Below, piece by piece: positions 939 to 21,134 of a stretch of DNA of 64,000 nucleotides. The notes beneath the pieces were generated by a model, which was not told the origin of the DNA, did not search any database, and worked only from the letters and a program-made list of their open reading frames with translations. A program made the translations under genes and the position numbers. Where the stretch lies: assembly GCF_029392315.1 (NCBI RefSeq), contig NZ_CP113939.1:1860001-1924000 (forward strand), given 5' to 3'. Each line of letters starts with the position of its first letter. The first letter of the stretch is position 1. The stretch is from Bifidobacterium sp. ESL0690 (GTDB taxonomy: Bacteria; Actinomycetota; Actinomycetes; Actinomycetales; Bifidobacteriaceae).

Positions 939-1152
939 CAGCACCCAGCCTCCTCGGACACGGCACCGTCATCGGCCTGCCGTCCGCGCTCCCAGTTGCG
1001 ACGTTCTCCCTCGACCATCACACCAGTGTAACCCGGCTACCGCCCACCAGACCCATGCCTAATATCCTCCTCGACCAGCCATTCCAACATCGGACGCGCC
1101 AACGCTTTCTCCCCATTGACCGATACATAACAGATCTCAGATATACGGCCAC

Positions 1153-1446: not shown

Positions 1447-1542
1447 CCAGCACGACCCTTCTCACCACCAAAACGAAACCACCATCATCGGGCGCCCACG
1501 TTCAGAACAAGCCACGCGCCACAACCATGTCACGCGGAGGAG

Positions 1543-1905: not shown

Positions 1906-1975
1906 ACCTATTCACCTTTCCTTGTATTTTCCCATATCCATGCCCGTGTGAATCCCCGGACAAGTTTGCGACGGC

Positions 1976-3453: not shown

Positions 3454-3505
3454 CACCGACTCCTTCCACTAACGCCACCGTCAACAACCACGTGCCGCGT
3501 CTCGT

Positions 3506-4369: not shown

Positions 4370-4373
4370 ATAC

Positions 4374-5615
4374 TTACCGTCCGAATAAACGTTCACTGAC
4401 TTTACCTCCAAATTCATCGGCTTTACCACTGATAAGCACACTGGCACCGACTTGGACACCAGCAACTACCAGTGGGGCAAACGGACCGGTCAAACCTCCA
4501 AGAGCTACGCCTACCCCTATCGTGGCTACTGCTGTTATTGCGGTCGATACACCAACCTTGACGCCTTCTTTACCAGACGCCTTGAAACCGGCACCCAGCC
4601 TGTCGCCGATGGAGCCATTGGTACCCAAAAATGCACCAACACCCTTGGACGCCACATCGTACAGGTCCATGGCCTTGCCTGCGACGCCGAGGCCTTTGTT
4701 TGCGAATTTCATGCCCTTACCCAGCGCACCAAATTCGTCTCCATGATCTAAGTCTTTGACGATTTCATCGAAGTCGTTGCATATCTTGCGTCCCCCAGAC
4801 TCATGCCCTTTAACACCAACGTCATATTTCTTAAAATACGTCTCATATGGCAGGAAATCCTTGAATTCATCCTTAAAGTTTTCGAGCATTTTTTCGGGGT
4901 TCCGGAGATCTTTAATTTTGCTCGGATCCTTGGTATACTCGACGAAATCCGAGAGGAATTTCGACACCTTATCCTTAATTTGAGATGGAAGCGTCTTCGT
5001 CAAGTTCGGAATATTACCGACTATCGAGTGGCTGAACTCCTCCTTATACTTGTCATCGAAATCCTGCACCGCCTGCCCATAATTGTCCCACGCTTCCTTT
5101 GCGGAATTGACCTGGATCTGTTCTTCCACCAGTCTGCCTGACAACAGGAACAACGCGGCAAGAATATTTTCCTTTTCACCTCCGCCGTTGTCCAACATCA
5201 AGGCAAAGCCTTTAGCAGCCTCAACCGCCAATATGAAGGAGGCGAACGCTCGATCCAAACTAGTGGAAGTCTGATCGACCTTTGCCTCATCATCATAGAA
5301 AATATTGACTGGATTGGCCACAGAACCACCACCCAGCAGCCCTGCCACCGCAGCTCTTTTGAATGAGATATCAGTAGTCAAATCCAAGTGTGCAAGACTC
5401 AAGTTAACCGAATACTGCTTAAGACCGATGGCAAGAGCATCAGCACTAGTAAACCATCCCCTCGCCATCACATCCGCCGAGCTTGAAGCCATTCCGGCAT
5501 TGAGGCTGGAGACATCTACAGTATTGTATTTTTGGGCAACCGAGGCAATGGTGTCATGCAAACTGTCCATGGCATTCTTGGCATCGAGGACATCATCGGT
5601 ATTTACATTCAGCAT
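4374..5615 (-). CDS. LXG-like putative T7SS effector with hydrophobic C-terminus
   Basis: A 413-residue protein. The N-terminal ~200 residues are helical without a signal peptide, as expected for an LXG/WXG-type targeting domain. The middle is charged and Lys/Asp-rich. The last ~110 residues are Gly/Ala/Val-rich with two hydrophobic stretches (VSTAITAVATIGVGVALGG and FAPLVVAGVQVGASVLI), like membrane-inserting or glycine-zipper toxins. It follows a small WXG100-like gene with which it overlaps by 7 bases, the usual layout of an LXG effector and its helical partner. Its base composition is clearly more AT-rich than the neighbours, a sign of transfer. The ATG at 5615 has GAGAGG upstream. No enzymatic toxin domain is recognisable. 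Confidence 0.6.
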   Translation of the reverse strand: MLNVNTDDVLDAKNAMDSLHDTIASVAQKYNTVDVSSLNAGMASSSADVMARGWFTSADALAIGLKQYSVNLSLAHLDLTTDISFKRAAVAGLLGGGSVANPVNIFYDDEAKVDQTSTSLDRAFASFILAVEAAKGFALMLDNGGGEKENILAALFLLSGRLVEEQIQVNSAKEAWDNYGQAVQDFDDKYKEEFSHSIVGNIPNLTKTLPSQIKDKVSKFLSDFVEYTKDPSKIKDLRNPEKMLENFKDEFKDFLPYETYFKKYDVGVKGHESGGRKICNDFDEIVKDLDHGDEFGALGKGMKFANKGLGVAGKAMDLYDVASKGVGAFLGTNGSIGDRLGAGFKASGKEGVKVGVSTAITAVATIGVGVALGGLTGPFAPLVVAGVQVGASVLISGKADEFGGKVSERLFGR

Positions 5616-5914
5616 TTTACCTCTCCCGTGTTGCTGCTGGCAGCCGCATTGTCGGCCGCGATGAAAGCGTCGGACGCAGACGTCGATTGTAACGAAAAAC
5701 TTGCAAATCCTTGAGCCAGAACATCCACCAGAGTTCGCGCCTGCTGACACATCTGCCGTGCCATATCTCCGGATTCACTCTGCCACGATTCCAAGGCCTG
5801 TGACGCATCTTTGATATAGCGCGCAGAAGCCACAATGTCGTCGCTCATCTGCTTGAAGTTGTTCGAAACCTGCTGCCAAGCGGCCTCGTTCGATTTGATT
5901 TCCTTACCACTCAT
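5609..5914 (-). CDS. WXG100-like small helical protein (effector partner)
   Basis: A 101-residue helical-hairpin protein of WXG100 size. The turn carries W44 but reads WQSES, so the glycine of WXG is missing. The C-terminal third is Ala/Ser-rich. Proteins of this type encoded directly before an LXG-like effector act as helical partners that form the secretion signal. Its start overlaps the stop of essC (ATGA), and its end overlaps the start of the effector by 7 bases, so all three are translationally coupled. Confidence in the fold is good; the partner role is inferred from gene order. Confidence 0.7.
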   Translation of the reverse strand: MSGKEIKSNEAAWQQVSNNFKQMSDDIVASARYIKDASQALESWQSESGDMARQMCQQARTLVDVLAQGFASFSLQSTSASDAFIAADNAAASSNTGEVKC

Positions 5915-8900
5915 TGTTTCTCCTCCTTTTCAGATTCGTCTTTATTCCCTTCATATTGCAAAGGCCTCACTTTCATCACGCTGCCGCGAGAGGCAAATAC
6001 CGCGTCCTTGGCGCCGACCCCCTTCAAAGCGGACAGCGGCACGCCGTATGTGTTGACCAGCGTCTGGCCGGCGTTGAATCCGGCCCCCAGCCACAAGCCG
6101 TCCTTGTAGGCGGTCATGGCGGTGAACCACGCCTCGTAAACACCTTTGGCTCTCCACGCTTCGGTGCCGACCACGAAACCGGTATGCCTCCTGATCTCGT
6201 CCGAGGAGACGAGACGGGTGAACAGGGCCCCGGTATCCGGCGACAGACCGGAGACCAGCGTCATCACCGAAGGAACGAGCACCAAATCGAAGCCGCCCTG
6301 CTCGACGGCATGCAGGGCGTCGAGCACCCCGGTATCCTTCGAACGCACATCGCCGCAACCTTCCGGAACGATCCCGTCGATGTCCAACGTCACGGTACGC
6401 ACTCCCGCGTCGGAGAGCGCACGCGCCAGACCGCGGAAGTAGGAACCGATTTGGTCCGCATCGTTGCTGGCCACCAGCATCACCGGCGTACGCTGCGCAT
6501 CGAAGCAGACTGGTTCGATGCCCTCGACGGAAATACCGGCAGGCACGCAAGAACGTCCCAAGGAAAGCCCGGCGAACATTGTCGGCGTGACGACCTTCGG
6601 CAGCACAGGAATCGCCGGTGCCGACTGTCCATGCCACTGGCCCGCGTCCCAATCCGCGAAACTGCGTATGACATCACCTTCACCCGACGGGTCGTCACAC
6701 AACGACGCCCCTTGGAACTCGTAGACCTTCTTGCCCGAGGCGACCAGCCCGCGACGCAAAGCATGCGGCGGCACCATTTTGCGCGCCCCGCTGCCCAGCA
6801 CCGTACCGTAATCGTTCTCGTCATTGAACGCGGTGACCACGCTCGCCCCCATATTCGCCCTCAGACGCATACGCAGACCGTTGGCGGTGGCTGCCGTGAC
6901 GATGAAACGCACTCCGTAACGCACGCAGTCGCGCGTCATCGAATTCAGACGATCCTCCATGTCCGGGAATGCTTCGTAGAACGCCGGCACACCTACCAGC
7001 AGCACCAGAAGCTCCGGTTCCACGGCTCCGGCGTCGACATGGTCGTTGTATCCACCAATGGAACCGCCATATGGGGCGAACAGGTCACGACGACGCTCAA
7101 TCTCGCGCTCCAGCAGGCGGAACAGGCTCTCCACCCGCTCGACGTCTCCGGAAAGCACCACCCCTCCGCAATGCGGGTCGTGTGCGAACGCCGAGAACAC
7201 GCCCGCACCGAAATCAAGCACATAGAAACGAAGATGCGCAGGGTCCATCCGGCCGGCAAGCTCGGTGAGCATCGCAGCCAGCCATCCCTCCGGGTCGGTG
7301 GACACATCTCCATAGACGCACAGGTTGCCGTCGTGCCCGAGGTCCAACGTCATCAACGCCTGTCGCTGCTGCTCCGGATCGTCCAGCTCGCCGCCGACCA
7401 GCACCAGATCCGAATCCCCGGGCCAGTCATTCGTATATTTCTCCCGTAGCCCGTCGATGACCACACGAGACGGCAGCGGGTCGAGCCACAAGGCATGCGC
7501 CGAAAGCCCCGACGCCCCCGCCACCTCGCACACCTGCGCCAACACCGCGTTGAGTTCCGAGACCTTCGAGCCCGAAGTCCCGCCCGACGCCGGACGAAGC
7601 CGCGCCAACGGTTCGCCGGCCAGACCGACCAGCTCCACCGACACGTCACGCTTGGGTTCGTACACCTCGCGTTCCACATACGAGCCGCCCGCGTACGCCG
7701 CCTGCCCGCCCACGAACAGCTCGTCGTAGCCGACCAAAAGATAGAATTCGCCAGGCCGGTCGAGCTCGGCCGCGTCGGGACGACGAATCATCTCGCGGCT
7801 GTCTCCCGCATCCGCCACCTTCAACGACACACGGAACCGCGCGTTGCTCGCGATCTGGTCGGAGACCACACCCGTCGGCTTCTGCGTCGCCAGCACCAGG
7901 TGCAGCCCCAACGAGCGCCCGATACGCGCCGCCGAAACCAGCTCATCCATGAACGCCGGCTCCTGCTGCTTCAACTCCGCGAACTCATCCGCCACTACAA
8001 ACAGATGCGGGCAGGGTTCCTTCAATACCCCTTGACGCCAATACGAGATGTACTTGCCGATATCCATCGTCGCTTCGCCGGTGATATCGCAGGCCTTGTT
8101 GAACAATGCCTGGCGACGTTTCAGCTCGCTCTGGATCGAGACCATGCTTCGCGTCACCGCGGCCCCGTCGAGGTTGGTGATCGTGCCAGCTAGGTGAGGC
8201 AGACGATACCGGTCGTTGTCGAACGCGCCGGCCAGACCGCCGCCCTTGTAATCAATGAGCACGAACGCGGCCTCGTCCGGCGAGAAATTCACGCACATCG
8301 AAAGAATCCACGTAATGATGAACTCGGACTTTCCGGAACCGGTGGTGCCGGCAATCAGACCGTGCGGGCCATGCGCGTCCTCGTGCAGGTCGAGATCGAC
8401 CAGCTCGCCCTTGGCCCCCACTCCCACCGGAGCCGCCAGCGAACGTGACGAATCATGTTTCTTCCAACGGTCGGCCACGTTGAGCTGCAACACGCTGCCC
8501 GCCTTGAACATCTCCATGAAGCCCAACGACTCGGGCATCGACCCCTCAGCCTGAGACGCGCCAAGATGCGCGCGCGAAAGCGCCAAAACAAACGCCTGCG
8601 CCCGGCTTTCAGACAACAGGATATCGGGGCGAAAATCGCGTTCCGTGCCCCCGACGTCGCTCCGGTCGAACATTCTTGAAACCCCGGCAAGCACACCCGG
8701 AGTACCCAACGCGTAATCCCCACGCGCCAATTGAGCATCGTCGGGTTTGGCAAGTTCGATGACTTGCGAGCATTCCCTCGGCAAATCCTTGAGTTCATCG
8801 GCCAGGAATATGACACAAAAACCTTTGTTCTTTCCGACTTGGGAAAGCTTCGCGACACTAGAGGAGCCCGAGGTCAAATCCTTGTTGGCGCAAAGCACCA

Positions 8901-10557
8901 CATAGAACGGCATGCACGTGCGTGCAGAGGCTTCATGATCATCCGCGCGGTCCGCCAAAACCTTGCCCAGCATCGTGTCCAATGCCAACAATTCGGTGGA
9001 ATCCCCTGCGAGATACCGCACTTTCCCGTCGTTGCTGCGTGCGTGAGGGGCGTCTTTGAGGAATCCCCATTCACGCTCTTCCTGGGGATTGACGATAGCG
9101 GCTATCTTCACCTCGTTATAGCTGTAGAACCCGCAGACCTGAGTCAAAAGCCCTCTGACGAAATCCCAAGTGAGCGGGCGCGACCCCACCAGGCCCAAAG
9201 TCTTTGTCGCCGCCAAATCGACGGCCACGGGAGCTTCCATCATCGTCGGCTTGTCGGCGAGCGCCTCCGCCTGATCGAGCAGGGCGTCATCATCCATGCT
9301 GAATCCGCGGTGCGGGGCCTCGATCTTGGCCTGCACGTGTTGCTGGCCCATCCCCACCCGCAACTGCAGGAAGTCATCATGTGTGGCATTGCGGTCCATC
9401 AGATGCGGCGAAAGGTCGTAGGCCCGTTGCAGCACCTGCGCCAGCGGAGGCCGGTTTTCATTCAAGATCGCGATTTGCCGGTCGCGCTCCTGCAACAGCT
9501 TGGCGGTTATCGAATTGAGATAATCGGTGTATTTGTTTTGACGACGACGTTCCTCCCGGCCTTCCACTTTCTTGGTATACCGCTTGCTGATCATCGGCCA
9601 GATTACGGTTCCACCGATCATGGCCACAGCCATTGCCAAGGAAGGCAACGCGGTCATGATATTGCCGCCGTGCGAGATATTGGACATCGCCGAAATGGCC
9701 ATGAACACCGAGCCGATGCCCATCAGGAACGAAGGCCCCAGCTGCATCAGCGCCGGCTGGTCCTTCTGCTTCGGCGATTGCGGCGGTTCGTCGACATGGA
9801 AGGTCTTGACATGCACGGTATGCATGAGTCTGGGAGCGGGATAGAAGGGTTCCGGCTCTTCCACATCATCATCCGGCTTGGGAGAGGAGGCCGCGATGTT
9901 CTCGTGCGAAACCTCGTGCCAATTGCGCGAAGTCCTGAGGAGCACGCCCTCAGGGGCATTGAGCGAGATAAAACGCAGACCGACGGTGAACACCAGATCC
10001 ATGATCTGCACCAAATCGCCGGGATTCAGGCTCATTGCCTGCCCTGCGGCCAATCTTTCGCCGTTGACGAAAGTACCGTTCACGCTCCCGTTGTCGACAA
10101 TGGAAAAGCCGTCATCCCTATAACGCAGTGTGGCGTGATGCTCCGAAACAAAAGAAATCGGATAGACGAGCGCATTGTCCGCCCCGCGCCCGATCGGCAT
10201 ATCGGCAGGCTGCGCAAATGCGACTTTATGAAATTTCTTGGCACCTGGTGATAACGGGTGGATGAAAAGCAATGCGACGGTATCATGGGCAATCTGCCGC
10301 AACGTAACCACACAGCCTTGTGGGTTACGCATTACATCGTAACGTTCAACGGCCTTGCCGTCATCGCCGAACAGGCGGCAACCGGAATCCGCAGTCAGCG
10401 TCATCCCGTTTTTATCGGTGCGCACAGTGGCGCTTGGAGTGTTCAAGCCCTGCCGGCTGAAGCCTATATGACAGACACCGAACGATCCGCTTTCGACGGC
10501 AAAGTTTTCAAGCTGCCGGGCATCGATCAATGTCACTACATACGCATTGCTGGGCAT
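5911..10557 (-). CDS. essC: Type VII secretion ATPase EssC (FHA + FtsK/SpoIIIE)
   Basis: A 1,548-residue membrane ATPase, the motor of type VII secretion. Residues ~1-110 look like a degenerate first FHA-type domain. Residues ~118-192 are a canonical FHA domain (GRG, SEHHA, NGSVNGTFVNG). Two membrane helices lie at ~273-293 and 300-322. The first FtsK/SpoIIIE domain has an intact Walker A GTTGSGKS at ~737-744 and a Walker B (LFVVADEFAEL). The second (~1083, GDVSTDPEG) and third (~1360, VASNDADQ) nucleotide sites have lost the P-loop lysine. The N-terminal FHA layout is that of firmicute EssC (T7SSb), not mycobacterial EccC. ATG at 10557 has GGGAGG six bases upstream. Confidence 0.93.
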   Translation of the reverse strand: MPSNAYVVTLIDARQLENFAVESGSFGVCHIGFSRQGLNTPSATVRTDKNGMTLTADSGCRLFGDDGKAVERYDVMRNPQGCVVTLRQIAHDTVALLFIHPLSPGAKKFHKVAFAQPADMPIGRGADNALVYPISFVSEHHATLRYRDDGFSIVDNGSVNGTFVNGERLAAGQAMSLNPGDLVQIMDLVFTVGLRFISLNAPEGVLLRTSRNWHEVSHENIAASSPKPDDDVEEPEPFYPAPRLMHTVHVKTFHVDEPPQSPKQKDQPALMQLGPSFLMGIGSVFMAISAMSNISHGGNIMTALPSLAMAVAMIGGTVIWPMISKRYTKKVEGREERRRQNKYTDYLNSITAKLLQERDRQIAILNENRPPLAQVLQRAYDLSPHLMDRNATHDDFLQLRVGMGQQHVQAKIEAPHRGFSMDDDALLDQAEALADKPTMMEAPVAVDLAATKTLGLVGSRPLTWDFVRGLLTQVCGFYSYNEVKIAAIVNPQEEREWGFLKDAPHARSNDGKVRYLAGDSTELLALDTMLGKVLADRADDHEASARTCMPFYVVLCANKDLTSGSSSVAKLSQVGKNKGFCVIFLADELKDLPRECSQVIELAKPDDAQLARGDYALGTPGVLAGVSRMFDRSDVGGTERDFRPDILLSESRAQAFVLALSRAHLGASQAEGSMPESLGFMEMFKAGSVLQLNVADRWKKHDSSRSLAAPVGVGAKGELVDLDLHEDAHGPHGLIAGTTGSGKSEFIITWILSMCVNFSPDEAAFVLIDYKGGGLAGAFDNDRYRLPHLAGTITNLDGAAVTRSMVSIQSELKRRQALFNKACDITGEATMDIGKYISYWRQGVLKEPCPHLFVVADEFAELKQQEPAFMDELVSAARIGRSLGLHLVLATQKPTGVVSDQIASNARFRVSLKVADAGDSREMIRRPDAAELDRPGEFYLLVGYDELFVGGQAAYAGGSYVEREVYEPKRDVSVELVGLAGEPLARLRPASGGTSGSKVSELNAVLAQVCEVAGASGLSAHALWLDPLPSRVVIDGLREKYTNDWPGDSDLVLVGGELDDPEQQRQALMTLDLGHDGNLCVYGDVSTDPEGWLAAMLTELAGRMDPAHLRFYVLDFGAGVFSAFAHDPHCGGVVLSGDVERVESLFRLLEREIERRRDLFAPYGGSIGGYNDHVDAGAVEPELLVLLVGVPAFYEAFPDMEDRLNSMTRDCVRYGVRFIVTAATANGLRMRLRANMGASVVTAFNDENDYGTVLGSGARKMVPPHALRRGLVASGKKVYEFQGASLCDDPSGEGDVIRSFADWDAGQWHGQSAPAIPVLPKVVTPTMFAGLSLGRSCVPAGISVEGIEPVCFDAQRTPVMLVASNDADQIGSYFRGLARALSDAGVRTVTLDIDGIVPEGCGDVRSKDTGVLDALHAVEQGGFDLVLVPSVMTLVSGLSPDTGALFTRLVSSDEIRRHTGFVVGTEAWRAKGVYEAWFTAMTAYKDGLWLGAGFNAGQTLVNTYGVPLSALKGVGAKDAVFASRGSVMKVRPLQYEGNKDESEKEEKQ

Positions 10558-10705
10558 AGCTACCTCCCGAAAAACCATGACAAGATTGGCTTGGTCGCCC
10601 TGTTCCGCCACTACCGACGGCGGATATGAACCAATAGAACACCGCGTAATCTGGTGAGGAAACAGCTACCCGCAGCCGTTCCCTCACCAGATACGGCAAA
10701 CCATG

Positions 10706-10999
10706 TCAGCCGCGGAACTGAGAAGCGATATTCTGATCCGTCTCTTCCAGGGACTGCGCGGTGTTTCGCAGGCTGGTGGCGATATCGTTGATCAGTTGCT
10801 GAGCCTGGGTAAAGCTAGGACGAAGCTCGGCGAAACGCGAAGCATAGGCCTGGCTCGAAGCGCCTTCCCATTCTTCCTGGAGTTCATTGAGCAGAGTGTC
10901 CATTCTGCTGATCACATCGCCGACAGCACTGGCCTGCTGGTCATACTCACCTGCACGGCTACGCATCTGATCCGGCGTAATTCGAATCTGTCCTGCCAT
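10706..10999 (-). CDS. WXG100 family secreted protein (EsxA-like)
   Basis: A 97-residue helical hairpin with the family motif W44-E-G46 in its turn (EEWEGASSQAY) and an N-terminal helix starting RITPDQM. WXG100 proteins are secreted as dimers through EssC and are core T7SS components. No C-terminal YxxxD signal is obvious; the tail ends SLEETDQNIASQFRG. It lies 148 bases upstream of essC on the same strand. The start at 10999 was preferred over an ATG six bases upstream because AAGGAAAGGAA then has proper spacing. About 220 bases without a gene precede it, so it may have its own promoter, as is common for esxA. Confidence 0.92.
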   Translation of the reverse strand: MAGQIRITPDQMRSRAGEYDQQASAVGDVISRMDTLLNELQEEWEGASSQAYASRFAELRPSFTQAQQLINDIATSLRNTAQSLEETDQNIASQFRG

Positions 11000-11223
11000 T
11001 TTCATTTCCTTTCCTTGTCTCCTCCGGTTAGCCCGGAGAAGCTTGCGCCGGATTTCGACGCAAAATCTTTAATTGTTATTCCTCGCCGGCCGCTGCCTAT
11101 CGCCTGTCGTCAAGCCCACCGCACCCACCGGCAATCGCAATGGCTAAGTAGTGGTCTAGCGGTGTATCAATTCCAAAGCGGAAGCACTGCCACAGCGGCA
11201 GCCGGCGAAGAACCCCTCACGGT
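11000..11223. other. Intergenic segment upstream of the WXG100 gene
   Basis: This 224-base gap separates the giant Ig-like gene from the WXG100 gene; both are on the minus strand. It holds the WXG100 ribosome binding site and short GC-rich inverted pieces (TTAGCCCGGAGAAGC region), but no ORF I believe and no clear uridine-tract terminator. A separate promoter for the WXG100/essC unit is likely here; I cannot place its boxes with confidence. Confidence 0.3.
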
Positions 11224-14200
11224 CTATTTCGACTTGGAGTGCCTGAAGACGTTCCTCCTATAGGCGACGGACTTGCTGCGACGCACCGCAGCGACCGCGC
11301 CGATAGCCACCAGTGCCACCACGATGATGCCTCCGAAGATCAGCGGCAGCAGCAGCCCGCGCGCCATCATGTAGGCCCACCAACTCGTAGCCACCACAAT
11401 GCCGGAATACTCGGTCTTGGTGCGGTTGCCCGCCATATCGGTGGAGATGACCTCCACGGAGTGCTCGTGCTGGTCGGCCTCGAGGCGGTAGCTCATCGGA
11501 GAGAGCGTCCGCTTGCCTTCCCAATGCCCCACGGTTCGCCCGTCGACCTTGAGTTCGGCCGACTTGAGCGCCACGTCATCCTTGGCATCGACCACAAGGG
11601 CGCGAGAAGGCGCATAAACCACGGAGTTGTTTTTGAGCTCGTCCACCGAAGCGCTGGGCATGTCCTGGTCCACGGCGAAGTTGATCTGGGCATCGCCGTT
11701 GCGAGCCTCGTTCTTCTTGTTCATCGTGTTCTGCGAGAGGTTGCCCGCAGCGTCGACGGAAGTCAGACGAAGCCGGTAATAGCCGTCGGCGTTGAATAGG
11801 CTCGCGGGAAAATCGTAGGTGTCTTCCTGCCAGCCGCTGGTTCTGTCGCTGACCAGGTGGTAGTCCTTCGCCGACGAAATCGATTTGACGGATTGGTTGT
11901 GCACCAGTTCCGTATGCGATTTGTCGAAGTTGAGGCCGCTGACGTTGATCTCGGTGACGTGGACTTCCTGCGGAACCTTGATGTAACGCCCCAAGATGTT
12001 CTGTGTGGCCCCGTCGAGGATGTAGTTGGAGCCGAAGCGGTTCAAGCTGAACACCACTTTCTGCTCGCTCTCGTTGCCGGCCTTGTCCTTCACCTTCGCG
12101 TCGAGCGTGTAGACGTCGTCGTTGTCGACGGTGTGCTCCACGTCCGGCAGGGCCACGGACTTCGAAGTGCTGCTGTCCTGTTCCTTGCTTTGCAAGTAGA
12201 CGTCGTTGGCGTTCGACTTGCCGCGCTTGGCGTTCTGGTCTTTCTTGCTCGGGTCGGGGTTTCTGGTGCGCGTCAGCTTGTAGTCGGCGAACATCGGATC
12301 GAAATTGGTGTCGCTGAAATCGATCTGCGGAGTCACCTTGCCCGCGTAGGCGGTTTTGTCGGTGACCTGGCTGATCGCCAGTTTCGGCTTGGTCATATCG
12401 ATGATGAATTCGGGTTCTTCGACAGCCTCGGCGGTGTTGCCCGCCAAGTCGGTGGCCGTCACCTTGATCGAGTAGTGCAGCTCGCCGGTGAAGGCAACCG
12501 AGGTGGTGCGCTCGTAGTCCTTGCTGGGTGCCGACCAAGGCGCCGCAGCCGGCGGAGTCACAGCCGTGCCGTTGGCGTCCTTCGCGCTCACGGTCACCGC
12601 GGTGTCGGCAGGGCTGAAGTTGCGTTCCGTCTGCTTGATGCTTGCGGTGCGCGTGGCCTTGTAGTAATTGCCGTTCTCGGAGGAGTTGTTGTCGAATTTC
12701 ATCTCGAGTATCGGCTTTTGCGTGTCGATGGTGAATTCCGAATGGTACGGAGCTGCGACATGACCTGCCGGGTCGGTCAGCGAGACGTCGAAGGTCCAGT
12801 CGGCGTCATGGTCGCAGGGCACCTGCGCCACCCACGTCGAACCGTCCTTGCTCGGGTTGTCGAATTTGTCGGCGTCAACCGTCGACTTCGAGCCATCGGC
12901 CCGGGTGACGACGATATCGCGGTATTTGTCGTTGCCCTTGATGAAGTCGAAGTTCGATTCGTTGATGGTCACCGTGGCCGTGCGCTTGGCTTTGTAATAC
13001 TTTCCATTACGCACGTCGTTGTTGTCATAGACCACACCGATTGTCGGCGCCTTGGTATCGATGGCGATACCCGTGGTGCCCTTGGGCAGGTTGGAAAGCA
13101 GCTTGGGCTTGTCTTTTTCGGGGACATAGCCGGAAGGCATCACCGTGTCTCCCAAGTCCAGCGAGCTGACGTTGCCGGCCCTGTCGCTGATACGCAGCGT
13201 TGAACCTTTGAGCGTCAACCGCTCGGAATCGTCACCGAAATTCACCGATACCTCTGTGGTATGGTTGCCGGCATCTCGACTATCGACCTTGCTGGGAGGA
13301 TTGTTGGTTCCGTGCTCGGAAAAGACTCCATGGAATGTGGGGCCGGCATCCTGGCACTGGTCGTCATTGACATTGCAGACGCCCGAAACGTCATCGGAAG
13401 TGGATATGTCGACGGTTTCCGGCTCAGGCGCAAATACCCAGTTCCATTGCGAAGGATTAACCAACGCGAAATTCACCTTGGTGATCTTCGGAGGCGTGTA
13501 GTCCACACCGAATTTAAGGGTTGGACTCTGAATTGGCACTCCTCCAATGGTTCGGTATGTCAGATCGAAGACGTATCGGCCTTCCACGGTTTTGCCCGCG
13601 CCATCTCCGCTGCCGTTGGTCGGCAATTGCACATTCATAATCCAGTTATTGCCTTGGCCAGCCGCGAATTCACCCAAAGAGACTTCACCCGGATTGCCTA
13701 GCTGAGGAGCAAGCATGCTTCTGTTGGTCGCCAATCTGGAAGCGACCGGGAACCATTTGTCATTGACTGTGACTTTGAGCGCTGCGGAATTTCTGTGCCA
13801 GGTATTAGCTTCTGTACAACCTTCCTGCTTGCCTTTCACCACGTCGCAGACTTGAAGAGTCACCTTCTTGTCGGTCTCATTTTGCCCGTCTATTACGATT
13901 ATCTCGTTGCCACCATCAGTGAGCTGACTGAGCTTTTTCTCGCTCACATTGCCGGCGTTATCGGCGGCATGCACAACGACGTCGGAAAGCAGGTATGCAC
14001 CATCCTCATTAAATTTCAACGCATTTTCATCGTTCAGCCAGCCGCTGCTAGTGTCAAACTTGTCTTCGGTCAGATCAATATGCGTCAAGTGACATCCATT
14101 ATCCGCCACGCAAGCCGGTTCCGGGCTGTTTCCTTCCCGCTTCGCCGCATCGAGGACTTCCGCATATGTATCATACTTCCGATACTCAATCCAAGACTCT

Positions 14201-16182
14201 TTGCTCTTGTCGGAGTCGGATTTATGGGTGAGCTTGACTTGGGACGTCCATTTCTCGTTCATAACAGATATGTTGTCCGAGGAAATATCCTTTGGCAATA
14301 TATCCTGCATCCTTATGCTGTATGCCATCGGCTTTTGCACAATAGTCGCCAGAACCGGTATCGACTTGTTACCGGATAGCTTCTGACTGAACGAATTATC
14401 GTCGGTAGCGGCAGGAGAAGAATCCAGTTTCGTACCCGTCACTTTTGGACCCGTGCCATCTACAAGAATATTCGCTTCAGGAATAGGCCAACGCTCACGT
14501 GAAGCATTTTCATCATCGGTGTTTTGCCCTTGTAAATTAGCAGATTTCCTATAGGAAAGGGTGAATTGCACTTTTGTGTACCCACCTTCGTGGAGAAGCA
14601 TCATGGAATATTCTTTTTCAATTCCAGTTAGATTTTTGCAAATCCTATCATTTCCGGAAACTGGGCAAATATCAATCGGATCTGATGTGATTGTTTTCTG
14701 AGGGACAGAAGTAGTATCGGTATACGTATAAGTAAGTCTCGGATCGAAATTCCTTATTTGATAAATCAGTGTTTGAAAGCCCGGCTTGAACTGTGCAGTC
14801 AGCAAGACAGAATGCGCTGTTCCTGTCTTTTGCGTGCAAACGCCTTGGTTATCATCATATATTGAGCAAGGAGCTGTTTCGGGATTGTCAGGAATATTAT
14901 TCGAGTCATCCAAAGGTGTGATTACTTCGGAAATATTATTAGGCAAATCATTACTATTCGGCGTATTGTATATGTTCCATTTTTTTATGCCATTTTGCTT
15001 AAATGCAGGCATATCGGCGAGAGAAGAGGGAGTCGATTCATTGCCCGCCCTATCAGATACTGAAAAAACAAGCTTGCTCAGATCCACAGAAATACTTTGA
15101 CCGTACTGATTACTTTGTATATATTTGAGTTGCACCAATGTGTCCAGATTTATTGTGAACTGGACACATTGAGAATTAGGTTTGATAGCACAAGTTTCAG
15201 TATGAATATCCGTTAAACTGCCCTTATAAGATGGATATTGTATGTTTATCTTCTGTCCGGCAAGACCCGAAGCCGGGGCAAAGGTATCCGGCTGACCCGA
15301 AGTTGATTGTATTTTTTGCTGCGAATCTGAAGCCCTGACCTGAATCGTGATTCCGATGCCACTGGAATCTTTTGATGAGCCTTGTAAGGGCACTATCCCT
15401 TCTGGGTTAAGATCATCAGCATAATGTATTTCATCAGGAGAAACAGTAAAGTCAGGAGCTTGAGTATCTGCATAAATCGGAAGTTTTACGAATTGTCCTT
15501 TTACAAATGTCACCGGACTCCCTGTTCCAGGAATTTCAGTAAAGTCTGAACCAATTTTCACATAAACATACATCGGTTTATCCGAAGGAGTTGGCTTGAC
15601 AGTCACGGTGTTTAAGTTCGGGTTGCCAGGGAAGGAAATTGCTCCCTCTACAGGAGAAACCTTAGAGACTTGGTATCCTTGGGCAGCAAAAGCAGAATCC
15701 ACAGTTACTGTTATTTTAGGATACTTTTTATTCGCCCAAATACGTAATGGGGCGTTTTGTGGATCCTGGCTATTTGCGTCACTACTCCACCAGTTCCCCG
15801 AGCAATACGCATCCGGAGATGTTTCTAAATTGCCATAAGTAATCTTGATATGAGAGGCCAGAATATTTTGTGGGGTTCTTGCATAAGGAGCCACGGCAAT
15901 CTCACTATCGGGAATATTGGAAGGCTGTGGCGTAGCAGGAGGAGCACTGGGACCCGATGGCGTAGAAGGTTGAGGCTGCGAGCCTGTTGACGGATTGGTC
16001 TGTGAGCCTGACGATGGATTAGTTTGTGAACCTGACGATAGATTAGTTTGTGAGGAATTAGGCTGAGAACTCGGAGAATTCCCGGCAGCTGACGCTGCAA
16101 CGGCAGCACCGCATCCGAACACGGCACACAACGCAACCGCACAAACCGCTGTACGGATACCATGAAAATGCTTGTTTCTCAT
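11224..16182 (-). CDS. Giant cell-surface protein with repeated Ig-like domains
   Basis: A 1,652-residue exported protein. It has a signal peptide (basic start, Ala/Val core, cleavage near AASAA, ~residue 33) and then a Ser/Asn/Gln/Pro-rich linker with SSGSQTNP repeats to ~residue 85. The ectodomain contains many D-x-AGN motifs typical of bacterial Ig-like folds. Three related units of about 110 residues start near 1041, 1152 and 1262 and share YYKA[KT]RTA. A single membrane helix at ~1603-1631 and a basic tail anchor it; no LPXTG motif is present. The N-terminal half is clearly more AT-rich than the C-terminal half. It lies in the T7SS locus, so an adhesin or a secretion-linked envelope protein are both possible. 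Confidence 0.85.
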   Translation of the reverse strand: MRNKHFHGIRTAVCAVALCAVFGCGAAVAASAAGNSPSSQPNSSQTNLSSGSQTNPSSGSQTNPSTGSQPQPSTPSGPSAPPATPQPSNIPDSEIAVAPYARTPQNILASHIKITYGNLETSPDAYCSGNWWSSDANSQDPQNAPLRIWANKKYPKITVTVDSAFAAQGYQVSKVSPVEGAISFPGNPNLNTVTVKPTPSDKPMYVYVKIGSDFTEIPGTGSPVTFVKGQFVKLPIYADTQAPDFTVSPDEIHYADDLNPEGIVPLQGSSKDSSGIGITIQVRASDSQQKIQSTSGQPDTFAPASGLAGQKINIQYPSYKGSLTDIHTETCAIKPNSQCVQFTINLDTLVQLKYIQSNQYGQSISVDLSKLVFSVSDRAGNESTPSSLADMPAFKQNGIKKWNIYNTPNSNDLPNNISEVITPLDDSNNIPDNPETAPCSIYDDNQGVCTQKTGTAHSVLLTAQFKPGFQTLIYQIRNFDPRLTYTYTDTTSVPQKTITSDPIDICPVSGNDRICKNLTGIEKEYSMMLLHEGGYTKVQFTLSYRKSANLQGQNTDDENASRERWPIPEANILVDGTGPKVTGTKLDSSPAATDDNSFSQKLSGNKSIPVLATIVQKPMAYSIRMQDILPKDISSDNISVMNEKWTSQVKLTHKSDSDKSKESWIEYRKYDTYAEVLDAAKREGNSPEPACVADNGCHLTHIDLTEDKFDTSSGWLNDENALKFNEDGAYLLSDVVVHAADNAGNVSEKKLSQLTDGGNEIIVIDGQNETDKKVTLQVCDVVKGKQEGCTEANTWHRNSAALKVTVNDKWFPVASRLATNRSMLAPQLGNPGEVSLGEFAAGQGNNWIMNVQLPTNGSGDGAGKTVEGRYVFDLTYRTIGGVPIQSPTLKFGVDYTPPKITKVNFALVNPSQWNWVFAPEPETVDISTSDDVSGVCNVNDDQCQDAGPTFHGVFSEHGTNNPPSKVDSRDAGNHTTEVSVNFGDDSERLTLKGSTLRISDRAGNVSSLDLGDTVMPSGYVPEKDKPKLLSNLPKGTTGIAIDTKAPTIGVVYDNNDVRNGKYYKAKRTATVTINESNFDFIKGNDKYRDIVVTRADGSKSTVDADKFDNPSKDGSTWVAQVPCDHDADWTFDVSLTDPAGHVAAPYHSEFTIDTQKPILEMKFDNNSSENGNYYKATRTASIKQTERNFSPADTAVTVSAKDANGTAVTPPAAAPWSAPSKDYERTTSVAFTGELHYSIKVTATDLAGNTAEAVEEPEFIIDMTKPKLAISQVTDKTAYAGKVTPQIDFSDTNFDPMFADYKLTRTRNPDPSKKDQNAKRGKSNANDVYLQSKEQDSSTSKSVALPDVEHTVDNDDVYTLDAKVKDKAGNESEQKVVFSLNRFGSNYILDGATQNILGRYIKVPQEVHVTEINVSGLNFDKSHTELVHNQSVKSISSAKDYHLVSDRTSGWQEDTYDFPASLFNADGYYRLRLTSVDAAGNLSQNTMNKKNEARNGDAQINFAVDQDMPSASVDELKNNSVVYAPSRALVVDAKDDVALKSAELKVDGRTVGHWEGKRTLSPMSYRLEADQHEHSVEVISTDMAGNRTKTEYSGIVVATSWWAYMMARGLLLPLIFGGIIVVALVAIGAVAAVRRSKSVAYRRNVFRHSKSK

Positions 16183-16261: not shown

Positions 16262-17314
16262 TCAGGCATGGCGACGTGCCATGAATAGGCCCGCGCCAAG
16301 CAGCAGCGTCAACGCCGCCACACCCGCGACACCAATCACCGGCGTGCCCGTCTCAGGCAGAGCCCCGGAAGCCTTCGCCGTCGCAGCCTGCTGCTGCTTC
16401 TTCTGCGGATTCACAGGAGCAGGACCGGGACCCGGCTGCTGCACAGATGAGGGATCCTGTGGAACGGCAGGGCCTGAAGTGGAATACATCGTAAAACTGG
16501 TATAATCATAGTTATAAATATTGGGTGCTTGGTTAGGGAAATGATAATCAGCAACAAAACTTATCGAATCTCCCTCATTCAGGCCGGTCCAACTGACCAC
16601 ACCCGTCACAGGATCGAAGACCCCGGAACTCGGGGTGATGGTCGTCGGCCGAATATATTCCCCATCCAAGCCCCTCGGAGTTTGCAGCCATGTCGCAGCC
16701 GGCTGAGGATCCGTAGCCGGCGTTTGATCAACGACATTCTCATCCTGCAAATTAGGCAAGGCCAGAAGCGGCTTCATCGGCCGAAGATCAGCGATATGGT
16801 TCCCATCAAGCATCAGAGTCGTCAACTTCGTCAACCCGGAAATGGCAGAAATGTCGACAATCTCATCGCGCTCAAGAACGAGATCCGTGAGATTCGTCAA
16901 CCCCCTTAACGAGGAAATGTCCGAAACAGACGAATACGCCACGTTCAGATGAGTCAACTTGATCAAGCCCGCCAACGGAGAAAGATCGCTCAACGTAGTA
17001 TTGGAGGTCTTCAGATATTCCAGATTAGTGAGATATTGGACCCCTTGCAACGAAACATAATGGTTTCGCAATGAAACGACACTGTCAGCGATATGCTGGG
17101 TAAACACGTCGCCGACCGCGACACCACCTTTAGTCGCCACATCAGCGGCCAAAGTCGTGTCCGGGAAGCACTGGGCGATGGTGCTCGTGCCCACCGAACA
17201 ACTCCCCCTCGTCTCCACGGCATTCGCCGAACCCGGCACCAACATCGCCACAGCGGCAACACCCGCGACGCAAGCCGCCAACGACCCACGCACGCCTTTC
17301 TTAGTAAACCTCAT
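16262..17314 (-). CDS. Leucine-rich-repeat surface protein, LPETG-anchored, copy 1
   Basis: A 350-residue cell-wall protein. It has a signal peptide ending near SANA (residue ~32), then a conserved ~55-residue cap containing two Cys, then about five internalin-like 22-residue leucine-rich repeats (DLSPLAGLIKLTHLNV, DISSLRGLTNLTDLVL, DISAISGLTKLTTLML). A beta-rich module and a Pro/Gln linker follow. The sorting signal is LPETG, a hydrophobic helix and a basic end. Sortase would anchor it to peptidoglycan. It is the downstream copy of a tandem duplication with the gene at 17444-18571; ends are nearly identical while the repeats differ. The ATG has GAAAGG upstream. Confidence 0.9.
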   Translation of the reverse strand: MRFTKKGVRGSLAACVAGVAAVAMLVPGSANAVETRGSCSVGTSTIAQCFPDTTLAADVATKGGVAVGDVFTQHIADSVVSLRNHYVSLQGVQYLTNLEYLKTSNTTLSDLSPLAGLIKLTHLNVAYSSVSDISSLRGLTNLTDLVLERDEIVDISAISGLTKLTTLMLDGNHIADLRPMKPLLALPNLQDENVVDQTPATDPQPAATWLQTPRGLDGEYIRPTTITPSSGVFDPVTGVVSWTGLNEGDSISFVADYHFPNQAPNIYNYDYTSFTMYSTSGPAVPQDPSSVQQPGPGPAPVNPQKKQQQAATAKASGALPETGTPVIGVAGVAALTLLLGAGLFMARRHA

Positions 17315-17443
17315 CTTCTTTTCCTTTCAATCAACCAGCCAAGCCCCAAACCACTCAGACCCAACCGAAACCAACAAAACACAAAACAAAAAACATCTTT
17401 TTTAACAGATAACCCACCATCGGATTGTCAATGGGATTAGCGT

Positions 17444-18571
17444 TCAGGCATGGCGACGTGCCATGAATAGGCCTGCACCGAGCAGCAGCATCAACGTTGT
17501 CACACCGGCAATGCCGAGCACCGATATGCCCGTCTCAGGCAGAGCACCAGAAGCCTTCGTTGCCGCAGTCTGTGCCTTCTGCCGATTCACAGGAGCAGGA
17601 CCAGAACCTGGCTGTTGTGCATGTGCAGGAGCCTGCGGGGCCGCAGGACCGGAAGTGGAATAAGTCCCTACTGCCGAATAGGTGTAACTAGCAATCGGAT
17701 CTGGCTCATTGGGGAAATGATAATCAACATCGATGCTGATTTCATCACCTTCGTTAAGTCCAGACCAGCTCACCACACCGGTAGTCGGATTGTATGTACC
17801 GGAACTAGGAGTAATTTGATAAGGTTCGATGTATTCACCATTAAGCCCCATGGGAGCCTGAAGCCACGTCGCCGAAGGAGTGGATTCTTCAAACTGCCCG
17901 GCAAAGGGATTCTCACCGCCACCAGTATCGGGGTCTGTCCAACTAAGATATGGCGCAACCGCCTTTACGGGCCGAAGATCACGGATATGATTATCCCATG
18001 CTTCGATGTGTCGAAGTCTCGTTAAACCGGACAGTGGAGTGATATCAGTGATATTATTACGATCCACATTCAGCACCTCCAGATTGGTAAGCCCTCTAAT
18101 CGGGGAAAGATCAGAGATGTGACCATAGGTAAAATCCAGCCTAACCAATTGCGTCAAGCCGGCCAATGGAGACAAATCAGAAACACTGGAATGTTCAAGG
18201 GTTATCTTCGTCAAATGCCTGAGCCCCGACAAAGGAGACAAATCAGAAACGCCACTGTACTGAGAATGAATCGTGGCCAGATTGGTGAGGTGCTGAACTC
18301 CCTGTAACGAATTAAAATTGCCGTCTACTTCAAGCACTGTGTCGGCGATGTGCTGGGTAAACACGTCGCCGACCGCGACACCGCCCTTGACTGCCACATC
18401 AGCGGCCAGCCTCGTATCTGGGAAGCACTGGGCGATGGTGCTCGTGCCCACCGAACAACTCCCCCTCGTCTCCACGGCATTCGCCGAACCCGGCACCAAC
18501 ATCGCCACAGCCGCGACACCCGCGACGCAGGCCGCCAACGACCCACGCAGACCGTTCTTCGTAAACCTCAT
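17444..18571 (-). CDS. Leucine-rich-repeat surface protein, LPETG-anchored, copy 2
   Basis: A 375-residue paralogue of the neighbouring gene with the same order: signal peptide, conserved cap with CSVGTSTIAQCFPDT, about six internalin-like leucine-rich repeats (DLSPLSGLRHLTKITL, DLSPLAGLTQLVRLDF, DLSPIRGLTNLEVLNV and others), a beta-rich module, a Pro/Gln-rich linker and an LPETG sorting signal with terminal ARRHA. The 5' untranslated bases and the last ~40 coding bases are also shared with copy 1. Such proteins bind host or bacterial ligands, but the ligand is unknown. Sequence shows one to two more repeats than copy 1. Confidence 0.9.
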   Translation of the reverse strand: MRFTKNGLRGSLAACVAGVAAVAMLVPGSANAVETRGSCSVGTSTIAQCFPDTRLAADVAVKGGVAVGDVFTQHIADTVLEVDGNFNSLQGVQHLTNLATIHSQYSGVSDLSPLSGLRHLTKITLEHSSVSDLSPLAGLTQLVRLDFTYGHISDLSPIRGLTNLEVLNVDRNNITDITPLSGLTRLRHIEAWDNHIRDLRPVKAVAPYLSWTDPDTGGGENPFAGQFEESTPSATWLQAPMGLNGEYIEPYQITPSSGTYNPTTGVVSWSGLNEGDEISIDVDYHFPNEPDPIASYTYSAVGTYSTSGPAAPQAPAHAQQPGSGPAPVNRQKAQTAATKASGALPETGISVLGIAGVTTLMLLLGAGLFMARRHA

Positions 18572-18705: not shown

Positions 18706-19365
18706 TCATCGTCGACCACCGCCTTCCGGCTTGCGTTCAGGAAGCAACGTGGTCGGAACCCACTCCTCGCCGGCATCTGCCGAGCGGGTGGAAGTGCCAC
18801 CAAGCAATGTCGTTTCAAGCCCCTCGCCGTCAGCCGCCGCGCTGGGTGCAATGTGCTTCCCCACGTGCTTCGAACCCTTCAGCAGCGTTGTCGCGCCTTC
18901 GTCGTCGCCAACGCCAGCCTGACGAACCTGATTCAACAAGGTGGTCGAAAGCTGTTCATCGCCATCGGCTCCACCGTTACCGGTTTGCGAGCGCTGGCTT
19001 TGATCCAACATCGTGGTGCCCACGTTTTCGTCATCCACCAACGCAGCGGAGGCAGAATCCCCAACGGAGGGCTGGCCGCTACCCAACGGTTGCAAATCGG
19101 AAGAATCCAATGAATCGGATACGCCGTGTATCTGGCTGGCTCGCCAAGGCGTACCGCCTTCCGGTGCCTCAGAACGCCTTACATCCGTCTTCCAACGCCC
19201 GCTTTCGCGACGCAACTCGGCGATGCGCAGCTCAGCCGTCTTACCCGTCAACGTGTCGCGAATCCCTCTGACGTTCCAAGCGAAATACAGAATGACGGTC
19301 ACAATGGCGCAGACCACGGCCAGTGAGAACAGCACGACGGCGGTAATCTTGAATCCCGAACTCAT
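18706..19365 (-). CDS. Membrane protein with five TT[L/M]L motifs (putative kinase substrate)
   Basis: A 219-residue protein with one membrane helix at ~8-29 and a long hydrophilic, Gly/Asp/Ser-rich tail expected in the cytoplasm. The tail carries five evenly scattered TT[L/M]L motifs at residues 117-120, 141-144, 159-162, 185-188 and 205-208, each in a disordered context and mostly with acidic residues before it. I know no named family. Its ATG overlaps the stop of the Ser/Thr kinase gene (ATGA) and AAAGGAG lies upstream, so the two are co-translated. The pattern fits multiple phospho-threonine sites read by an FHA domain such as that of EssC; this is inference. Confidence 0.8.
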   Translation of the reverse strand: MSSGFKITAVVLFSLAVVCAIVTVILYFAWNVRGIRDTLTGKTAELRIAELRRESGRWKTDVRRSEAPEGGTPWRASQIHGVSDSLDSSDLQPLGSGQPSVGDSASAALVDDENVGTTMLDQSQRSQTGNGGADGDEQLSTTLLNQVRQAGVGDDEGATTLLKGSKHVGKHIAPSAAADGEGLETTLLGGTSTRSADAGEEWVPTTLLPERKPEGGGRR

Positions 19366-21134
19366 AGTCTGGTCTCCTTTCCGCCAGTATTGGCGGCACT
19401 GCCTGCACCATTGGTTCCTGCGATGTCCACAAAGGCTTCGGCCACCGCCTGTCGCGCGGGTGCGATGGAGCTGGTCGCCTGATCTTTCGTCTGCCGCAGC
19501 TTGGTCGTGGTGGGATCGACGCTTTGCGAAAGGTTCTGCGCGGCGTCAATCGCCTTGTTCAACTGCTCCTGGGTGACGCCGTCGGCACGGAACTTACGGG
19601 AATAGGTGCGCAGCGCTTCAAGCACGGTATTGACCGTCGAAAGCTTCATCACGTCGTTGTTGCTGGACTGCATCATGTGCATGAGCGTGTTCATGCTCTT
19701 GAAATACGGCGCATACTTTCCGGCGTCGGAGCCTTCGTTGATCAGGGGGACTATCGTGGTGTTGAAATCGGCGATGGTGGCATAGAGTTTGGCCAGCTTC
19801 TGATCCTTGAAACTCGTTCTGCTGGCCTCATTCATCCAATGCGACGCGGCGGTGATACGCAGATATTGCGATTGCGCGATGGTGTCGCCGCCCACTTCGG
19901 GGCTCTTGGAGGGATCGACGGAATAGTAATACCAATAAAGCTTGCCCACATCGAAGCAAAGACGGCCCCAATTGCCACCCTGCTTCTGCAGGACCGCGGA
20001 ATGGTCATCAAGCGACTGCTGCAACTGCTGTTCCTCGGAGGCGCTGAACACCCCGTCGGATTCGTACCTCTTGATCATCCCTTCGTAAGGATCGATGGAA
20101 CTCGGCCTGATGTTCGCGGCCGTTACGTAGTAGGCTTCCGCGGCATTGTCATCGCTGGACTGCGCGGCCAGGTTCATTTTCAGGTCATAGTTCGAATTCG
20201 CATTGACCGCACCGGCCGCCAATGTGGCGCCTCCACCCACCAAAGCGACCACGCTCGCCACGCACAGCACACAGAACGTCCGCCACTTCAGTTGCATGGT
20301 CTTGCGCCGCTTCGCATCCCTGTCCGAATAGTGCTCGAGGTCGTAGGCGAATTGCGCACAATCCTGATATCGCTGCTCCGGATCGCGCTGCATGGCTTTG
20401 CTCAACACACGCTCCAGGCCCGCCGACGCGTTGGGGAGCACCTGCCGCAGTGGCGCCGCGTCATAAGGCTCGCCTTTGATGGGCTTACCGGTAAGCATGA
20501 CGTAAAGCAGGGCGCCCAGGCCGTAAACGTCAGTCCGTGCGTCGCTGCGGCCGAACTCGTCGTACTGCTCGGGAGCGGCATAGCCCGGCGTGCCCATCCT
20601 CGCCTCGTAGCCCTGCGGCAACGGGCCTTTGGCAGGAGGCATCTCGCAGGCGATGCCGAAGTCGATGACGCGCACGGCTCCTTCCGGAGTCACCATGACG
20701 TTGGAAGGCTTCATATCGCGATAGACGATGGGAGGGTTGCGCTGGTGCAGGTAATCGAGCACATCGCAGAGTTGTATGCCCCAGGAGGTCACTGTTTCCT
20801 CGTCCTGCGGGCCTTGGTCGGCAAGCACTTTCGAAAGCGTTTCGCCTTCGATATAGTCCATTACGATATAAAGGCTGCCGTTTTCCTCGATCAGATCGAC
20901 GATGCGGGGTATGGCAGGATGGTCGAAGGTCTTGATAAGGTTGGCCTCGCTGATCAGGCCGTCGATGATGAAGCGACGTTGCTCTTTATCGGGGATATGG
21001 CGAATCTCCTTGACCGCCCACTGCTTGTGCAGCGTGGCATCAAGGGCGAGATACACGGTGGACATGCCACCGCGCCCGATCTCCGTCAGCAACTCATAAC
21101 GTTTGCCGACCCACCTATTGCCGTTATTCGCCAC
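19362..21134 (-). CDS. Membrane Ser/Thr protein kinase (PknB/Hanks type), no PASTA
   Basis: A 590-residue kinase. The N-terminal kinase domain (~12-270) has all key residues: glycine loop GRGGMS, K42, E63, YRD with D140, N145, DFG at 158-160, APE at 187-189. A membrane helix lies at ~285-308. The ~280-residue extracytoplasmic part is helical, TPR-like in pattern, and contains no PASTA repeats. GTG start with GGGGGAGAGG upstream. It opens the minus-strand secretion locus and is translationally coupled to the TT[L/M]L protein. Architecture (kinase fold, one helix, outer helical domain) matches that of EssB, but EssB is a pseudokinase and this enzyme appears active. Confidence 0.93.
   Translation of the reverse strand: MANNGNRWVGKRYELLTEIGRGGMSTVYLALDATLHKQWAVKEIRHIPDKEQRRFIIDGLISEANLIKTFDHPAIPRIVDLIEENGSLYIVMDYIEGETLSKVLADQGPQDEETVTSWGIQLCDVLDYLHQRNPPIVYRDMKPSNVMVTPEGAVRVIDFGIACEMPPAKGPLPQGYEARMGTPGYAAPEQYDEFGRSDARTDVYGLGALLYVMLTGKPIKGEPYDAAPLRQVLPNASAGLERVLSKAMQRDPEQRYQDCAQFAYDLEHYSDRDAKRRKTMQLKWRTFCVLCVASVVALVGGGATLAAGAVNANSNYDLKMNLAAQSSDDNAAEAYYVTAANIRPSSIDPYEGMIKRYESDGVFSASEEQQLQQSLDDHSAVLQKQGGNWGRLCFDVGKLYWYYYSVDPSKSPEVGGDTIAQSQYLRITAASHWMNEASRTSFKDQKLAKLYATIADFNTTIVPLINEGSDAGKYAPYFKSMNTLMHMMQSSNNDVMKLSTVNTVLEALRTYSRKFRADGVTQEQLNKAIDAAQNLSQSVDPTTTKLRQTKDQATSSIAPARQAVAEAFVDIAGTNGAGSAANTGGKETRL

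Follow-up and report, generated by a model that had tools for sequence, protein, structure and literature searches.

The TsdH-like protein of a T7SSd secretion locus in Bifidobacterium sp. ESL0690 carries five copies of a TT[LM]L motif, and their sequence and setting suggest that it is a phosphorylation-controlled docking tail of T7SSd, bound by the FHA domain of EssC, by that of a TsdJ-like protein, or by both (probability about 0.6). The reading is based on a single-pass protein with a predicted disordered multi-site tail, encoded directly after a membrane kinase gene in a cluster that encodes two FHA proteins. The whole stretch of DNA that was analysed, 64,000 nucleotides of contig NZ_CP113939.1, is referred to below as the window.

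The TsdH-like protein and its gene cluster

The locus in the window matches T7SSd, for which Garrett, Higginson and Palmer (2024; PMC11217815) give a set of five core components, TsdA, TsdC, TsdD, TsdH and TsdI, with TsxJ not among them (statements on this and the other cited articles refer to the parts of them that are drawn on here). TsdH is described there as having one membrane helix and a likely unstructured cytoplasmic region, and the authors bring up kinase-FHA regulation in general terms; the part of the article used here names no motif, site, partner or role for TsdH. By the same account, TsdD is a membrane Ser/Thr kinase whose outside region is helical, and T7SSd clusters do not encode the ubiquitin-like TsxB. 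The window was found to encode a WXG100 protein (TsdA), an EssC/TsdC whose FHA domain has the conserved phosphothreonine pocket, a protein with the TsdH topology, and a TsdI with the size, signal-like start, C-terminal helix and Ig-like domains of that component. The published absence of TsxJ was not reproduced, as a DUF6382-FHA protein (TsdJ/TseJ-like) with an intact pocket is encoded in the same genome, beyond the window and ~21 kb from EssC (G000:C1:1843191-1844810; L217:2192-3811). The DUF6382-FHA (TsdJ-like) component in these clusters is an extension of the published T7SSd description. The features are listed below.

18706..19365, minus strand: TsdH-like protein, 219 aa, with one N-terminal membrane helix, then a basic juxtamembrane helix and a disordered tail that bears the five TT[LM]L copies
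19246..19359, minus strand: predicted membrane helix (residues 3-40) of the TsdH-like protein, with a basic stretch after it; from AlphaFold2 and sequence, topology from the positive-inside rule
19006..19017, minus strand: motif 1, TTML, residue 117
18934..18945, minus strand: motif 2, TTLL, residue 141
18880..18891, minus strand: motif 3, TTLL, residue 159
18802..18813, minus strand: motif 4, TTLL, residue 185
18742..18753, minus strand: motif 5, TTLL, residue 205
19362..21134, minus strand: TsdD-like membrane Ser/Thr kinase, 590 aa, GTG start; PF00069 at E 2e-45 over residues 13-235, with YRDxKxxN, DFG and APE
5911..10611, minus strand: TsdC/EssC ATPase, 1566 aa, with an N-terminal FHA region; Pfam FtsK_SpoIIIE and FHA, NCBIfam TIGR03928 above cut-off
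10003..10194, minus strand: FHA domain of EssC, residues 140-203; G141, R142, S156, H159 and N178 present
10706..11005, minus strand: TsdA-like WXG100 protein, 99 aa; Pfam WXG100 at E 1.4e-21
11224..16182, minus strand: TsdI-like envelope protein, 1652 aa; Pfam Big_13 and Big_3_2 (Ig-like), signal-like N terminus and C-terminal membrane helix, ends judged by eye
17444..18571, minus strand: optional leucine-rich-repeat surface protein with an LPETG-like tail, encoded between TsdH and TsdI; its copy number varies in relatives
16262..17314, minus strand: second leucine-rich-repeat surface protein, a paralogue of that at 17444..18571

The preliminary description had reported a 219-residue ORF with TT[LM]L at residues 117, 141, 159, 185 and 205 in a disordered tail, and both points were upheld: the positions are correct, with one TTML and four TTLL, and an AlphaFold2 model, calculated from a five-sequence alignment, has helices at residues 3-40 and 42-63 and a pLDDT mostly below 50 from about residue 63 to the end. 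Because a basic stretch follows the membrane helix, the tail should face the cytoplasm by the positive-inside rule. The protein was assigned as TsdH by topology and gene position and set against the published TsdH by description. No family matched it in Pfam at E up to 0.01 or in NCBIfam at E up to 0.001. The TsdH profile used for the searches below included a relative from Olsenella massiliensis (L139).

Ten of the 15 threonines past residue 48 belong to the five copies. When the 171-residue tail was shuffled 200,000 times with its composition kept, no copy arose 197,840 times, one copy 2,148 times, two copies 12 times and three copies never. The five copies are written in five different codon quartets, and they are therefore not a fresh DNA repeat; a recent DNA duplication was ruled out as the origin of the array by this codon diversity. 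An array owed to chance or low complexity might be imagined, given that disordered tails vary in length and that repeats expand readily, but the shuffles, the codon diversity and the recurrence of arrays across other phyla leave this explanation with a negligible probability.

The gene setting was also as first described. The kinase ORF (19362-21134) stops in a TGA that overlaps the ATG of TsdH, giving the ATGA overlap, and the catalytic motifs of the kinase are intact. Its layout comprises the kinase domain, a membrane helix (placed by eye) and a C-terminal region presumed to lie outside, and the solved kinase nearest to its kinase domain is PknB. The claim of an FHA-bearing EssC was likewise correct, with Pfam FHA matching residues 140-203 at E 3.3e-15. 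Residues 1-230 of EssC were modelled by AlphaFold2 with a mean pLDDT of 88, and the folds closest to the FHA model were the EssC FHA structures 5fwh and 1wv3, with FHA-2 of Rv1747, GarA and EmbR also among the best matches, phosphothreonine-binding FHA domains included. A profile search with the EssC FHA domain gave Rv1747 (FHA-2), GarA, EmbR and OdhI as the nearest solved FHA domains.

Several further observations concern the surroundings. Leucine-rich-repeat proteins with LPETG-like ends (16262-18571) number two in the window, one each in G089, G091 and G083, and none in G012. Repeated cassettes of related genes, perhaps effector/immunity sets, flank EssC (60-5750; L217:8491-17189), and an APH-like protein (28292-30169) has a single APTTLI site and a long acidic tail. 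The C-terminal part of EssC (5911-10611) looks mosaic, the window and G083 having one version and G089 and G012 another; the N termini are similar in the window, G083 and G089 despite the differing C-terminal versions, and the pattern resembles that of the EssC variants of Staphylococcus. The EssC of G091 (L078:5319-9917) is ~41% identical to that of the window, the adjoining TsdD and TsdI being 83-88% identical, and was likely replaced.

Site conservation and the probable acceptor threonine

Conservation of the motifs in orthologues had been named in the preliminary description as a check on its proposal, and motif positions are indeed kept while the linkers diverge. Between the window genome (G000) and G091, with gaps left out, 19 of 20 motif residues are identical against 71 of 128 linker residues (Fisher p = 0.0004); the same comparison gave p = 0.014 for G083, 0.0013 for G012 and 0.36 for G089, which is too similar to tell. 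A full-length TsdD was found in 15 of 112 genomes of the genus, and the TsdH N-terminal profile placed TsdH next to TsdD in the same 15, two other genomes giving marginal matches. The order TsdD-TsdH-TsdI is kept wherever the contig permits, the contig of G040 stopping after TsdH.

Sites were counted as T-x-[LIVM]-[LIVMF] with overlapping registers included, a pattern that misses variants such as the PTVV repeats of L245, the D-x-T-V repeats of G064 and G065, and TTPL/TTRL in L139. By this count, TsdH has 5, 5, 6, 6 and 4 sites in the five closest genomes, the clusters of which all encode an EssC with an intact FHA pocket, 10 sites in G221 and 5-11 in six further relatives. The remaining ten genus genomes comprise seven with two or three sites, G072 with two, G064 with none and G065 with one. 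As regards conservation of motif number in homologues, also raised in the preliminary description, the number is held at 4-6 in the five closest genomes, but it is not fixed and runs from 0 to 11 further away. G064 and G065 have eight and seven D-x-T-V repeats, respectively, in place of pattern sites, and in both TsdH is fused to TsdI; the fusions L089:3659-8137 and L090:12971-16480 have seven and eight such repeats in the TsdH tail.

The EssC FHA domain is degenerate in the low-site genomes G097 and G024, and in G043 and G072 EssC is divergent and encoded on a different contig, close to an FHA match. A full EssC was not found in G074, G055, G040, G049, G064 or G065 despite the presence of TsdD and TsdH (G049 is 88% and G040 94% complete). 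In those six genomes TsdD and TsdH, joined by TsdI if the contig extends far enough, have the appearance of an orphan module. The split in the genus between site count and EssC pocket is clean in numbers and may be a single evolutionary event. G088 (L092, L093) encodes an EssC with an intact FHA domain and an FHA protein, yet gave no full TsdD or TsdH match.

The five closest relatives keep both threonines of the motif; further away the second varies, as in ETSLM, SRTILV, ETALM, PTEVL, ATGVL, DTSLL and GTQLL. The site in distant relatives is [acid]-x-x-T-x-[L/V]-[L/M/V], with only the first threonine fixed; the first threonine and the hydrophobic +3 residue, on which the preliminary description had built its case for FHA recognition, are thus the two features that persist while the second threonine changes. 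Among 98 unique sites from 22 proteins, Thr accounts for 45% of the +1 residues, with Ser, Ala, Val, Glu and others making up the rest, an acid stands at -3 in 57% (19% background), and Leu occupies +3 in 88%, although the purity at +2 and +3 is partly by construction, since the pattern preset both as hydrophobic.

The PknA-dependent Thr sites of Mycobacterium tuberculosis show a preference for an acid at -1 and at -3 to -6, Pro at -1 and Leu or Val at +3, together with Pro at +2 and a basic residue at +4 (PMC7164672); the last two are absent from the TsdH sites, whose sequence agrees in part with this published actinobacterial kinase motif. The Leu at +3 may stem from kinase preference alone. 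The sites also resemble two FHA ligands, namely DLPpTVVEI of TssL (PMC3953482) and pTRVV of Rv2623, which is bound by FHA I of Rv1747 (PMC5549992). The TssL peptides bind FHA weakly, with Kd values of 1.58 and 0.54 mM (PMC3953482), and with binding of this type several sites would help.

Arrays in other phyla and the candidate FHA readers

The EssC scan covered the best 80 of 584 relatives, corresponding to 79 distinct named loci, and an array was counted where an ORF between 80 and 1000 aa had four or more acid-preceded T-x-[LVI]-[LMV] sites within 120 residues. Arrays were present in eight of the 2,820 ORFs of these 79 loci, ORF sets that contain spurious frames and overlapping loci, and all eight share the strand of the kinase gene and follow it at a distance of 12-766 bases. 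They derive from a Coriobacteriia MAG (L144), Neobacillus mesonae (L150), Bacillus timonensis (L151), Bacillus sp. HNG (L152), Fredinandcohnia onubensis (L161), a Clostridia MAG (L163), Candidatus Heritagella gallinarum (L153) and a second Clostridia MAG (L170). In the last two (L153:19939-22089 and L170:19796-21931), the array consists of repeated QTVLL or GT[QR]LL and is carried by zinc-ribbon/TPR/LRR membrane proteins, between the zinc ribbon and the membrane helix; the TsdH profile found no match in either genome.

The position of the arrays bears on whether the motif is used in unphosphorylated form, TTLL binding a protein pocket, a chaperone or the membrane directly as a short linear motif. 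Paired leucines in an acidic disordered tail could indeed form a hydrophobic docking motif. However, the Thr-pattern arrays were located immediately behind a kinase gene, a point that is itself partly by construction because the pattern required Thr, and direct docking of this kind is considered quite improbable.

Within the 79 loci, arrays occurred in eight of the 27 whose EssC matches GR...SxxH against none of the 52 others (Fisher 8.5e-5), and a kinase in 18 of the 27 against four of the 52 (Fisher 6.7e-8), values that overstate independence since the loci are mutually related, represent the best 80 of 584 and are flank-limited. The fetched flanks of 14 of the 22 kinase-bearing loci in this set contained no array. 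Genes other than TsdH follow the kinase in L147, L149, L159, L160, L162 and L176, and in L154, L157 and L162 TsdH lies elsewhere in the genome.

A second set, made up of the window and loci 77-137 and 217-226, contained arrays in seven of 3,685 ORFs, six of them TsdH and one an FHA protein of the G221 cluster (L224:2254-3978) that has GK in its FHA domain. Whole-genome searches for TsdH (49 genomes, for 50 of the 79 loci) recovered four-site proteins in G780 and G788 and one with three sites in G783, where it is cut by the contig end. Coriobacteriia gave TsdH profile matches in 23 of 296 genomes, amounting to 25 rows, three of which were set aside as spurious or fragments; the 22 kept have at least four sites in six cases, three in two, two in two, one in five and none in seven.

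A strict tracking of arrays with the EssC FHA arginine was considered and rejected, since it agreed with the data for the genus and for the 79 loci but failed in Coriobacteriia. The arginine is absent from EssC though TsdH has 4-6 sites in G677, G647, G638 and G716, the EssC of G716 concerned being that on the TsdH contig; a second EssC in G716 has the arginine. Conversely, G662, G679, G708, G715, G756 and G757 (Coriobacteriia) combine an intact EssC pocket with 0-1 sites per TsdH. Scardovia wiggsiae (L174, L260) and the second system of RUG002 (L141, L268) are cases in which a degenerate EssC pocket goes together with the absence of an array.

Arrays where the EssC FHA domain is without its arginine would also suit a role with no FHA reader at all, the sites being kinase substrates that act by charge, as a substrate sink or through altered contact of the tail with the membrane; in addition, the upstream acid and the Leu at +3 can be explained by kinase preference alone (PMC7164672). 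Against this, arrays were found in clusters in which FHA domains are encoded as well, and an array is even present on an FHA protein itself (L224:2254-3978). A purely reader-free role is judged improbable.

If the array is read by an FHA domain, two candidates are at hand. EssC is not settled as the reader, because the TsdJ-like protein is an equal candidate, because EssC without the arginine occurs with arrays and because intact pockets occur without them. In G647, G677 and G716, FHA proteins, all with GR, are encoded no more than ~13 kb away from TsdH or EssC; those of G647 and G677 match DUF6382, and that of G677 has NR where NG is usual. Some relatives have FHA proteins with an acid-G-E-T-x-[L/I] site ahead of the FHA domain.

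Within the overall docking reading, it is conceivable, if rather unlikely, that TsdD phosphorylates the array and the TsdJ-like FHA protein alone reads it, the EssC FHA domain serving another partner. Such a division of labour would fit the intact pocket of the DUF6382-FHA protein in the window genome's own cluster, the GR-bearing FHA proteins of the three genomes just named, whose EssC on the TsdH contig is without the arginine, and the pairing of TsdH with an FHA protein in the clusters of G074 and G055, in which no full EssC was found. It is less easily squared with the five genus genomes that have 4-6 sites, all of which keep an intact EssC FHA domain, and with the other ten, with 0-3 sites, in which EssC is degenerate, divergent or unfound, although this split may reflect one event; Scardovia wiggsiae, with a degenerate EssC FHA domain and a site-less TsdH, points the same way. 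That EssC takes part in reading the array, as the preliminary description proposed, forms a share of the same docking reading and, judged from these sequences, may be so at somewhat short of even odds.

Proposed docking mechanism and relation to known systems

In the proposed mechanism, the kinase TsdD would phosphorylate the first threonine of each site, and the FHA domains of the EssC ring, of TsdJ, or of both would bind the phosphothreonine, with the aliphatic +2 and +3 residues as specificity contacts. EssC presumably forms a hexameric ring, and several weak sites on one tail could engage several FHA domains simultaneously. Responding to the region of the kinase that lies outside, the tail would then tether the ATPase close to the kinase and TsdI, or activate it there, and the outcome of docking may be either assembly or firing.

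A broader model, put forward tentatively, is that T7SSd and T7SSe share a phospho-code, in which a kinase-made pThr-x-[L/V]-L array on a membrane tail draws together, by avidity, the FHA domains of TsdJ and of the EssC ring, the number of sites setting the level at which assembly or firing takes place. Such a code would have at least two unrelated carriers, TsdH and the zinc-ribbon/TPR/LRR proteins, and would be the Gram-positive, multivalent equivalent of threonine phosphorylation in the T6SS pathway.

The docking reading gives TsdH a concrete and testable role, with candidate phosphosites, the first and not the second threonine as acceptor, two candidate FHA readers and a part for copy number to play. 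It could explain the presence of a kinase and an intact FHA pocket in several newly described T7SS subtypes and, if true, would mean that the control of secretion machines by phosphothreonine reaches beyond the Gram-negative T6SS to the Gram-positive T7SS.

Open-access articles in PMC on T7SSd/TsdH, on FHA with TTLL/TTVL, on EssC/FHA/T7SS and on Bifidobacterium T7SS, covered by title and start of abstract, did not describe the motif. The nearest known proteins are TsdH and TseH of T7SSd and T7SSe (PMC11217815), which are alike in the single helix and the unstructured region and in the company of TsdD, an EssC pocket and TsdI; what is added here is the array, together with its presence in further phyla, and a TsdJ-like FHA protein in these clusters. 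The T7SSb pair of the EssB pseudokinase and EssC FHA (PMC11217815) is similar in having a kinase fold with a membrane helix and an FHA domain on EssC, but in the part of that article used here it is without kinase activity and a phosphothreonine site, whereas the window has both sets of residues.

GarA and OdhI, with their ETTS motif (PMC12321487), likewise present an actinobacterial kinase site beside an FHA domain; they differ in having one site, located within the FHA protein itself, and in serving metabolic control. The threonine phosphorylation pathway of the Agrobacterium T6SS (PpkA, TssL pThr14 and Fha; PMC3953482) shares a kinase, a membrane target, an FHA reader and control of secretion, and the TssL threonine sits in a D-L-P-T-V-V context like that of the sites described here. 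It differs in its single site, in belonging to an unrelated system with unrelated proteins, and in having its FHA domain on a separate protein (PMC3953482). The genes of the window are T7SS components and do not belong to that pathway, the likeness being in logic only. The system as such is known, and what is new relative to the part of PMC11217815 drawn on here is the array, the proposed assignment of the acceptor threonine, the recurrence of the array, including in a second architecture, and the TsdJ-like component.
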